Source of the DNA: Eggerthellaceae bacterium
GTDB lineage: Bacteria; Actinomycetota; Coriobacteriia; Coriobacteriales; Eggerthellaceae
Direction of reading: 5' to 3'
NCBI GenBank assembly: GCA_009782605.1
Contig: WRIR01000007.1
Location: 1 to 64,000, forward strand
Length of the DNA: 64,000 nt
Shown here: in pieces, positions 4,117 to 7,077 of the stretch
Layout: each line of letters opens with the position of its first letter
How positions within the stretch are numbered: position 1 is the first letter of the stretch
Position numbers and translations under genes: made by a program
Notes under the pieces: generated by a model
Seen by the model: only the letters and a program-made list of their open reading frames with translations
Told to the model about the DNA's origin: nothing
The model's database searches: none

Positions 4117-4189
4117 GCCCCACTGGATGCCACGCGCGCCGAATGTGTTGCAAAGTGCTGCACGCCGGTGCCAGGCAGGGTAATAAAAA

Positions 4190-4282
4190 GGAGAGATGTC
4201 CGAGCTTGGTCGAAGGAGCACGATTGGAAATCGTGTATACGCCAAAAGCGTATCTGGGGTTCGAATCCCCATCTCTCCGCCA
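4190..4282 (+). tRNA. tRNA-Ser (anticodon GGA)
   Basis: A class II tRNA with a long variable arm. The acceptor GGAGAGA pairs with TCTCTCC, the anticodon loop is TTGGAAA (anticodon GGA), the T arm is GGTTCGAATCC, and CCA is encoded at 4280-4282. The trailer (TTGAAAACTAAGAG...) is nearly repeated after the next tRNA. Confidence 0.97.
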
Positions 4283-4332
4283 TTTGAAAACTAAGAGTTA
4301 TGGTACACTTTTTATCCCAACACACCCCATGC

Positions 4333-4425
4333 GGAGGGGTGGCAGAGTGGTTGAATGCGGCGGTCTCGAAAACCGTTTCACCGGCATTCCCGGTGACGAG
4401 GGTTCGAATCCCTCCTCCTCCGCCA
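4333..4425 (+). tRNA. tRNA-Ser (anticodon CGA)
   Basis: A class II tRNA 50 bp after the first tRNA-Ser. The acceptor GGAGGGG pairs with CTCCTCC with one G-T wobble, the anticodon loop is CTCGAAA (anticodon CGA), and there is a long variable arm, a T arm GGTTCGAATCC and encoded CCA. The two serine tRNAs are probably cotranscribed. Confidence 0.97.
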
Positions 4426-4535
4426 TTGAAAAACTAAGAGCATGGTACACTTTTGAGTCCGGCGGCCTACGGAGCCCGAAGGGATTCGAACCCGACGGGA
4501 AGCCCCCTGTCCGTTCACCGAGAGAAGAGGCATCG

Positions 4536-6359
4536 TTGCAGGCAATCATTCTTGCAGCTGGCATGGGAAAAAGACTTGGCGAGCTGACCAGCAACAACAC
4601 AAAATGCATGGTCGAGGTCAACGGGGTGACGCTGATAGAGAGGATGCTCTCCCAGCTGGACTCCCTACAGCCGCCCCTGTCCCGAATCATCATTGTTATT
4701 GGCTATGAGGGCGAAAAGCTCAAGGCCCATGTCGCCTCGCTTCCCCTTGAAACCGCTGTCGAATATATAACAAACGAAGACTTTGCGACGACTAACAATA
4801 TTGTCTCCCTGGCTTTGACAAAGGACTGGCTCGCCAAGGAAGACACCCTCCTTCTTGAGTCGGACCTGATATTCGAAGACGGCATCCTCGAAGAGCTCGT
4901 CAACGACGAACGCCCGACACTGGCACTTGTCGACAAATACGCAAGCTGGATGGACGGCGCCGTGGTGAAGATCGACGCAAAGGACAACATCCTCGCCTTT
5001 GTCCCCGGAACGAAGTTCGCGCTTGAGGACATCCCCCACTATTACAAAACGGTCAACATATACAAGTTCGGCAAAGAGTTCTCCGAGTCGCACTACCTGC
5101 CGTTCCTGGAAGCCTACTCGAAGGCTTACGGCGACAACGAATACTACGAACAGGTGCTCCGTGTGCTCATAATGCTCGACGACTCGGAGGTCAAGGCAAA
5201 ACGGCTCGACGGCCATCAGTGGTACGAGATCGACGACATCCAGGACCTGGACATCGCGTCGTCCATGTTCCACGCGGACCCGGAAGAGCACCTCAAGAAG
5301 ATCATGGAAAGATACGGCGGGTATTGGCGCTATCCGAAGCTGCTGGATTTCTGCTACCTGGTCAACCCCTACTACCCCCCCAAACGCCTGTGCGACGAAA
5401 TAAAGGCCGAGTTCGACAGGCTTGTCACCGAATACCCCTCGGGATTCGGGGTCAACTCCTTGCTGGCAGCGAAGAACTTCTCCCTGAACAGGGATTACGT
5501 CCTTGTGGGAAACGGGGCTGCCGAGCTTATTGCCTCCCTGCTCCGTTTCGTCGCTACCCCGGTCGGCATGATCAAGCCGACTTTCGACGAATATCCCAAC
5601 AGGGCGCGTCGTATGGATGTTGAAACCTTCATCCCCCAAACAAGCGACCTGTCGTACAGCGCCCGCGATGTGATCGAGCATTTTGACGAAACAAGCATCC
5701 AGAGCCTCGTTCTCATCAACCCGGACAACCCCAGCGGCAACTACCTCCCACGCGGGGACCTGCAGGCCATACTCGAATGGGCACAGCAAAAATCCATCAC
5801 CCTTATCCTCGACGAGTCCTTTTCCGACTTCTCTGACGAGCCCGACAACTCGTGCCTGAAGGACAGCCTGCTGGAAGCATACCCGAACCTCGTTGTGGTG
5901 AAGTCGATATCAAAGTCATACGGTATCCCCGGGCTGCGGCTCGGGATCATGGCCTCTGCGAACCAAGAGACGGTGTCTTCGGTGAGAAGGGACGTGGCAA
6001 TCTGGAACGTCAACTCCTTCGGGGAGTTCTATCTACAGATAGCGGAAAAGTACAAGCCCGACTACGAGCAAGGGCTTGGGAGGTTTCGGGAAGAGCGGAA
6101 GCGCTTCTTGGGCGAGCTTGGAAGAATCGACGGCCTGTCGGTTGTCCCGACCCAGGCAAATTTCGTCATGGTCAAGACGCCGGAAAGCATGCCGTCAAAA
6201 GACCTTGCCGTTCGGCTGCTGTCGGAATGGGGCATCCTCATCAAGGACCTCTCCGGCAAGGCGGTTCCCTCGGCGCACTACATCAGGCTCGCAATCCGGA
6301 GCAGCGAGGACAACGACAGGCTGCTGGCAGCGCTTCGCAGCATCCTCGACAGGGCATAA
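4536..6359 (+). CDS. Nucleotidyltransferase fused to class I/II PLP aminotransferase (CobD/HisC-like)
   Basis: A 607-residue two-domain protein. Residues 1 to about 240 are a nucleotidyltransferase of the LicC/sugar-phosphate type, with the signature AIILAAGMGKRLGEL, a conserved Lys in NTKCMVEVNG and acidic LLLESDLIFED. Residues about 255-607 are a PLP enzyme resembling threonine-phosphate decarboxylase CobD and HisC, with GNGAAELI, NPDNPSG, LDESFSDF, the Schiff-base lysine in SISKSYGIPGLRLG and a C-terminal IRLAIR arginine. TTG at 4536 is chosen because AGAAGAGG lies just upstream and the NTase motif starts at once. A plausible product is a CDP-amino-alcohol, the PLP domain making the phosphorylated amino alcohol (or aminophosphonate) and the NTase activating it. 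The substrate is inferred, not shown. Confidence 0.8.
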   Translation: MQAIILAAGMGKRLGELTSNNTKCMVEVNGVTLIERMLSQLDSLQPPLSRIIIVIGYEGEKLKAHVASLPLETAVEYITNEDFATTNNIVSLALTKDWLAKEDTLLLESDLIFEDGILEELVNDERPTLALVDKYASWMDGAVVKIDAKDNILAFVPGTKFALEDIPHYYKTVNIYKFGKEFSESHYLPFLEAYSKAYGDNEYYEQVLRVLIMLDDSEVKAKRLDGHQWYEIDDIQDLDIASSMFHADPEEHLKKIMERYGGYWRYPKLLDFCYLVNPYYPPKRLCDEIKAEFDRLVTEYPSGFGVNSLLAAKNFSLNRDYVLVGNGAAELIASLLRFVATPVGMIKPTFDEYPNRARRMDVETFIPQTSDLSYSARDVIEHFDETSIQSLVLINPDNPSGNYLPRGDLQAILEWAQQKSITLILDESFSDFSDEPDNSCLKDSLLEAYPNLVVVKSISKSYGIPGLRLGIMASANQETVSSVRRDVAIWNVNSFGEFYLQIAEKYKPDYEQGLGRFREERKRFLGELGRIDGLSVVPTQANFVMVKTPESMPSKDLAVRLLSEWGILIKDLSGKAVPSAHYIRLAIRSSEDNDRLLAALRSILDRA

Positions 6360-7004: not shown

Positions 7005-7077
7005 CGTCATTGCGGGCTTGACCCGCAATCTTTCAGTAGAGGCTTCAATAGGATTGCGGGTCAAGCCCGCAATGACG
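7005..7077. repeat. Inverted repeat with 26-bp arms
   Basis: The arm CGTCATTGCGGGCTTGACCC (7005-7024, continuing GCAATC to 7030) is repeated exactly in inverted orientation at 7052-7077, with a 21-bp spacer. The arm resembles a short repeat seen in many unrelated bacterial genomes. It lies just beyond the end of the DUF3887-like gene. A half-arm-like sequence (TGACCCGCAATCCTG) occurs near 23850. Confidence 0.8.

Follow-up and report, generated by a model that had tools for sequence, protein, structure and literature searches.

A single gene in the window, by which we mean the whole 64,000-nucleotide stretch of an Eggerthellaceae genome analysed here, encodes a nucleotidyltransferase (NTase) and a PLP-dependent enzyme on one chain. 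It raises the question of which compound the first domain activates, what the second domain does to it and where the product is used. The preliminary description of this DNA had read the gene as a LicC-like NTase fused to a CobD/HisC-like enzyme, a possible one-protein route to a CDP-amino-alcohol or an activated aminophosphonate. The domain types and key residues of that reading stood, whereas the precedent of FrbH and the association of the relatives with LicD, PF04464 proteins and amine-modifying enzymes had been missed.

The fusion gene and its distribution

The frame at 4536-6359 on the forward strand is open, without an internal stop, and encodes 607 amino acids in two domains. The first one (4536..5270, residues 1 to about 245) is a nucleotidyltransferase domain of the LicC/PntC type, with Pfam NTP_transf_3 at residues 3-124 and the structures 6pd1 and 1jyk as best PDB matches. 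It is followed on the same strand by a short linker (5271..5312, about residues 246-259), modelled as a helix at 249-258, after which the CobD-aligned region starts, and by a PLP decarboxylase-type domain of the SMUL_1544/CobD type (5313..6359, residues from about 260 to 607 plus the stop), with Aminotran_1_2 at residues 314-600 and the PLP lysine at K460. The TTG codon at 4536 is the right start, since the first residue of the relatives matches it, a likely ribosome-binding site (AAGAGG, 4525..4530, forward strand) can be read ahead of it and two tRNA-Ser genes lie directly upstream on the same strand (4190..4425; GGA at 4190-4282 and CGA at 4333-4425 according to ARAGORN). The longest form of the frame, from an ATG at 4143, was rejected because it would cross both tRNA genes. 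As had been noted for this protein, key residues are kept in both domains: K23, E108 and D110 of the NTase and K460, R468, W490 and R584 of the PLP part are invariant in 43 aligned members.

The gene stands alone and in a lone copy, with the tRNA-Ser genes on one side and an ORF for an unrelated, lipoprotein-like product on the other. The GC content of its region is 0.53-0.57 versus about 0.61-0.65 in the flanks, and a search for the att-like direct repeats that would flank a mobile island at tRNA-Ser found none. Between the tRNA-Ser genes and the fusion, positions 4480-4493 (AGGGATTCGAACCC) repeat the tRNA-Ser T-arm (4400-4413) perfectly over 14 nt in inverted orientation, with tRNA-like flanks and no complete tRNA, possibly a tRNA remnant. 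Farther downstream, between converging genes, positions 7005-7077 hold an inverted repeat (CGTCATTGCGGGCTTGACCCGCAATC) whose 26-nt arms match perfectly around a loop of 21 nt; it is unique in the window.

The same two-domain protein, with the same start residue, is carried by two other genomes of the window's family (69% and 62% identity), that is, by 3 of the 119 family genomes when the window's own is counted. A scan of species genomes, in which 485 candidates encode some relative, listed at least 80 loci with near-full-length relatives at 52-60% identity; among these matches are Bacillota, Bacteroidota, Actinomycetota, Spirochaetota and Verrucomicrobiota. Remoter full-length copies are found on plasmids, in Fusobacterium (48%), in Rahnella and Erwinia (35%) and in Gloeothece, Pseudonocardia and Priestia (31-32%). 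With relatives in the family's genomes and in so many other loci, the fusion cannot be due to chance, misassembly or a frame artefact. The joining of the two domains, as first described, is thus real, and the protein is old and horizontally spread rather than an accident of this genome. An origin in phages was rejected, as these give matches to the PLP domain only and none of full length.

Precedents and the two active sites

The closest functional precedent is FrbH, from the synthesis of FR-900098 in Streptomyces rubellomurinus, which carries a cytidylyltransferase and a PLP decarboxylase on one chain; CTP activates a phosphorus-bearing amino acid, which is then decarboxylated to a CMP-linked amine (PMC8976061, PMC8007912). 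The window protein has the same order of parts, an N-terminal LicC-type NTase joined to a C-terminal CobD-type PLP domain, and the corresponding lysines (K23 and K460, each the same in all 43 aligned members), the match being one of architecture and published reactions. The two differ in that the substrate of FrbH is a phosphonate and its gene lies in an antibiotic cluster, whereas the fusion family occurs in surface-glycan loci, mostly in genomes devoid of PEP mutase. Of 396 Actinomycetota genomes searched for FrbH itself, 4 matched at 1e-50, and an frb cluster was recognised in none of these. The architecture is already known; it is its wide use in surface-polysaccharide loci beside amine-modifying enzymes that appears to be undescribed.

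O-phosphoserine is 2-amino-4-phosphonobutyrate with a CH2 replaced by an oxygen, so that the chemistry of FrbH applied to it would yield CDP-ethanolamine. What the analysis establishes is the fusion itself, the identity of its domains, the conservation of catalytic residues, the clade of the PLP part, the gene neighbourhoods and the rarity of PEP mutase; the substrate, the product, the order of the steps and the acceptor are inferred. The protein is probably a bifunctional CTP:phospho-amino-acid (or phospho-amine) cytidylyltransferase and PLP decarboxylase, whose likeliest task is to turn phosphoserine into CDP-ethanolamine for surface glycans. The overall reaction would be O-phospho-L-serine + CTP -> CDP-ethanolamine + CO2 + PPi and, as in FrbH, cytidylylation to CDP-serine may precede decarboxylation. 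A LicD-type or CDP-glycerol-glycerophosphotransferase-like enzyme would then take the CDP-linked primary amine as donor and put phosphoethanolamine, or an N-modified derivative of it, on a cell-surface glycan. We found no measured activity for any member of the surface-glycan clade.

The NTase domain is LicC-like, as the preliminary description had it, its nearest solved structures being the PntC part of PntC-AEPT (6pd1) and LicC (1jyk). LicC, a CTP:phosphocholine cytidylyltransferase, has the same fold and signature, and relatives of the fusion adjoin licD genes; yet LicC is a single-domain enzyme that uses phosphocholine, whereas the fusion protein has the formation of the amine built in. 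The signature lysine, K23 in the window protein, corresponds to K25 in PntC and K38 in FrbH; by alignment, D110 is the aspartate of the metal site and E108 the counterpart of Glu104 of PntC. Alanine mutants of PntC K25 and FrbH K38 are inactive or nearly so, K38A of FrbH being dead, and Glu104 contacts the amine of aminoethylphosphonate, at a position where LicC has a smaller Asp (PMC6697681). Together with the signature match, E108 would favour a small substrate that is a primary amine or an amino acid.

The relationships of the PLP domain were studied in a tree of 64 domains (quick search without bootstrap, SH-aLRT supports). HisC is split from the rest (SH-aLRT 99), so the clustering with histidinol-phosphate transaminases that the preliminary description had named as fatal to its reading is not observed. 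All 34 fusions form a clade of 36 sequences (SH-aLRT 99) with the Sulfurospirillum enzyme and one stand-alone actinobacterial protein, CobD remaining outside; the domain is thus monophyletic with SMUL_1544, the Sulfurospirillum branch being a long one. The Sulfurospirillum sequence is a plasmid copy whose activity, 'norcobamide biosynthesis serine-O-phosphate decarboxylase', is that of its annotation. SMUL_1544 of Sulfurospirillum multivorans (6oux) is also nearest by sequence in the PDB (7.6e-45, before CobD 1lc5). The structure prediction that had been proposed as a check agrees: with the AlphaFold model (mean pLDDT 88.5, pTM 0.84) as query, 6oux ('SMUL_1544, a decarboxylase') is the best single-domain match, followed by CobD, and HisC mostly scores lower. 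SMUL_1544 itself differs from the fusions in being a stand-alone protein encoded in a cobamide operon. In NCBIfam, CobD comes first (177.7 bits, against a cut-off of 290.6 for TIGR01140) and hisC second (149.7 bits, against 276.6 for TIGR01141), neither reaching its threshold. The domain is thus not a member of CobD, outside whose clade it falls, and a HisC identity was ruled out by both score and tree; the genome's own HisC is encoded elsewhere (G000:C18, 323.7 bits). The early label of CobD-like is accurate for the fold and for the separation from HisC, but the nearest relative is a SMUL_1544-type decarboxylase rather than CobD.

It seems rather unlikely that the PLP domain is instead a transaminase whose substrate is a phosphorylated aldehyde or ketone, for instance turning dihydroxyacetone phosphate into CDP-serinol. 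The fold family consists mostly of transaminases, the CobD-fold enzymes including some, and PntC-AEPT of Treponema denticola (6pd1/6pd2) is a two-domain precedent with this chemistry, in which a homologous LicC-like NTase likewise lies N-terminal to a PLP enzyme. The PLP part of PntC-AEPT is, however, a class V (PhnW-type) domain, just as the preliminary description had it, whereas that of the window protein is an Aminotran_1_2 domain of the CobD type; PntC-AEPT aligns along both domains of the AlphaFold model, but the domains are placed differently, and the whole chains superpose poorly (rmsd about 22 A, TM 0.4). Moreover, the domain groups with decarboxylases, its best fold match is described as one, FrbH decarboxylates with the same architecture, and position 490 is Trp in all fusions, in 13/13 CobD and in the Sulfurospirillum enzyme, whereas it is Tyr in 12/14 HisC.

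Within decarboxylation, a CobD-like use of O-phospho-L-threonine, leading to CDP-1-amino-2-propanol, is an improbable alternative to phosphoserine. CobD, the L-threonine-O-3-phosphate decarboxylase (1lc5/1lc8), is the best NCBIfam match and shares the fold, the PLP lysine, Trp490 and Arg584, which aligns with its R337. Nevertheless, in the tree the domain falls with the serine-phosphate decarboxylase of Sulfurospirillum and apart from CobD, and two CobD positions are replaced: Tyr260 stands where the HGG motif of CobD has its His, and position 570, aligned with Arg323, is Lys in every fusion and Arg in 13/13 CobD, in 14/14 HisC and in the Sulfurospirillum enzyme. We take Arg323 (position 570) and His8 (position 260) of CobD to hold the phosphate of its substrate, and Arg337 the carboxylate. 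If this is right, the site for the carboxylate, and with it decarboxylation, has been kept in the fusions and the site for the phosphate altered; since K570 replaces a conserved Arg, the latter is not the same as in those relatives that are best characterised. A phosphate that already carries CMP would fit such a site. CDP-serine rather than phosphoserine could thus be what is decarboxylated, an order with which the Lys is consistent, or the substrate could be another one.

Gene neighbourhoods of the relatives

No CDP-alcohol transferase is adjacent to the gene in the window, as had been stated, but in the relatives transferases of CDP-donor-using families are neighbours. Among the matches listed, 36 of the 80 loci contain LicD and 21 PF04464, either of them being found in 54, and in Rahnella a CDP-alcohol phosphatidyltransferase stands beside the fusion. 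A second group of neighbours consists of two imine reductase-like proteins. An octopine-dehydrogenase-like gene (PF02317), whose nearest solved structures are octopine dehydrogenase and N-(1-D-carboxylethyl)-L-norvaline dehydrogenase, lies within three genes of the fusion in 30/80 of the listed loci; an ornithine-cyclodeaminase/mu-crystallin-like gene (PF02423), closest to pyrroline-2-carboxylate reductase and other imine reductases, does so in 15/80. They occur together in only one locus versus 5.6 expected (hypergeometric P = 0.005, relatedness ignored), and on a fusion tree of 43 loci they swap at least 13 times, so that they look like interchangeable modules. PF02317 is found in none of 14 control genomes, which places its adjacency to the fusion far from chance. 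Neither reductase is near the fusion in 36 of the 80 loci listed, so that N-modification is not universal. Other neighbours are a SAM methyltransferase followed by LicD in Gloeothece, methyltransferases in two more loci (L059 and L068), a formyltransferase-like gene in Fusobacterium and an AAC(3)-type acetyltransferase in Priestia. The main argument for a CDP-linked primary amine as the product of the fusion is guilt by association, the neighbours sharing either amine chemistry or the use of CDP donors.

That the two domains have separate activities in one pathway, the NTase using an unrelated sugar phosphate, has next to no probability: the NTase superfamily is broad and gives weak sugar-NTase matches (Arch_glmU), but PntC and LicC are its closest relatives of solved structure, the two domains constantly occur on one chain and LicD genes are their neighbours.

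Some loci have features of their own. A DUF1015 gene lies directly 3' of the fusion in a Lachnospiraceae genome (L028:7683-8939) and in Fusobacterium (L109:9820-10869); one such DUF1015 protein was searched against PDB and NCBIfam and gave no match. Free L-serine kinases have been reported in DUF1015, and such an enzyme would supply phosphoserine. Genome G003 has a divergent cluster near its fusion (L106, 7023-10356). Besides LicD, this cluster encodes a stand-alone PLP protein of CobD/HisC-like type, long-branched in the tree, and a protein in which a TagD-like cytidylyltransferase is joined to a GFO_IDH_MocA oxidoreductase; it may represent a second route of a split kind. On the Priestia megaterium plasmid pBM700 (L113, 3534-11638), the fusion and the acetyltransferase are accompanied by an additional DXR gene and by genes for two ATP-grasp proteins; this makes the locus a candidate for the synthesis of a fosfoxacin-type phosphate counterpart of fosmidomycin/FR-900098, in which DXR might confer self-resistance. 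On the Rahnella plasmid (L110), the fusion and the phosphatidyltransferase are followed by PhnX-like HAD, HAD-IIIC, MaoC, SDR, ATP-grasp and MFS genes, which suggests a cluster for a small molecule made with the CDP product; plasmids of Erwinia rhapontici carry a similar fusion.

The window's genome, which is 83% complete, gave no match for octopine dehydrogenase or OCD and has no LicD in linkage with the gene, whose role in this organism is thus deduced from the relatives. Candidate transferases are encoded elsewhere, namely two LicD domains in a phosphonate mega-protein and several PF04464 proteins on contigs C2 and C12. The simpler guess for this organism is unmodified phosphoethanolamine.

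Phosphonates, phosphate esters and surface decoration

A PEP mutase does exist in the window's genome; its gene belongs to a cluster on contig C2 that is not linked to the fusion (G000:C2:158000-177560, L105). This phosphonate-type cluster contains giant fusions: there are a PEP mutase with CTP_transf_like and a TPP-dependent decarboxylase, a protein of 1263 amino acids combines a PntC-like NTase with Fe-ADH and two LicD domains, and one of 1290 amino acids combines Fe-ADH, PF04464 and MptE-like parts; the cluster also encodes NeuB and a protein with CBS, cytidylyltransferase and HAD parts. A phosphonate role through this PEP mutase was rejected, as the cluster is unlinked and self-sufficient, having a PntC-like NTase of its own.

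Across the family, a strong PEP mutase match (186-200 bits) was found in 4 of 40 further genomes with the fusion; the other 36 have none or one of about 41 bits or less. No PEP mutase above the family cut-off was found in G003 (100% complete) or in the same-genus G011, both of which carry the fusion. It is thus very unlikely that the protein is a phosphonate enzyme, be it a true FrbH acting on 2-amino-4-phosphonobutyrate or a part of the C2 locus, despite its FrbH architecture and the PEP mutase cluster in its genome, a cluster that also has its own Fe-ADH and LicD domains. The aminophosphonate product that had been envisaged is accordingly unlikely for most of the family, whose substrates, given how few of these genomes have a strong PEP mutase, must mostly be phosphate esters. 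Most simply, O-phosphoserine would be the substrate and CDP-ethanolamine the product.

A broader version of the phosphoserine route is put forward tentatively. The family may feed CDP-ethanolamine into a pathway of surface decoration that is modular and has spread horizontally among gut and oral bacteria, decarboxylation taking place on CDP-serine; before transfer by LicD or PF04464 enzymes, the amine might be reductively N-carboxyalkylated in an opine-like manner (for instance with pyruvate) by either of the two unrelated imine reductases, or else methylated or formylated. Searches of the open-access literature for LicD with an opine dehydrogenase, for CDP-ethanolamine from a phosphoserine route together with LicD and for N-carboxyethyl-ethanolamine phosphate returned nothing relevant.

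If these proposals are true, the fusion would let bacteria make CDP-ethanolamine de novo with one protein and use it for zwitterionic modification of their surface, with no need to scavenge choline or ethanolamine. The way in which two non-homologous imine reductases alternate beside it would predict a definite modification that can be assayed, N-carboxyalkyl phosphoethanolamine, in the surface glycans of common gut anaerobes, and a function would be suggested for many genes that are now annotated just as 'aminotransferase class I/II-fold enzyme'.
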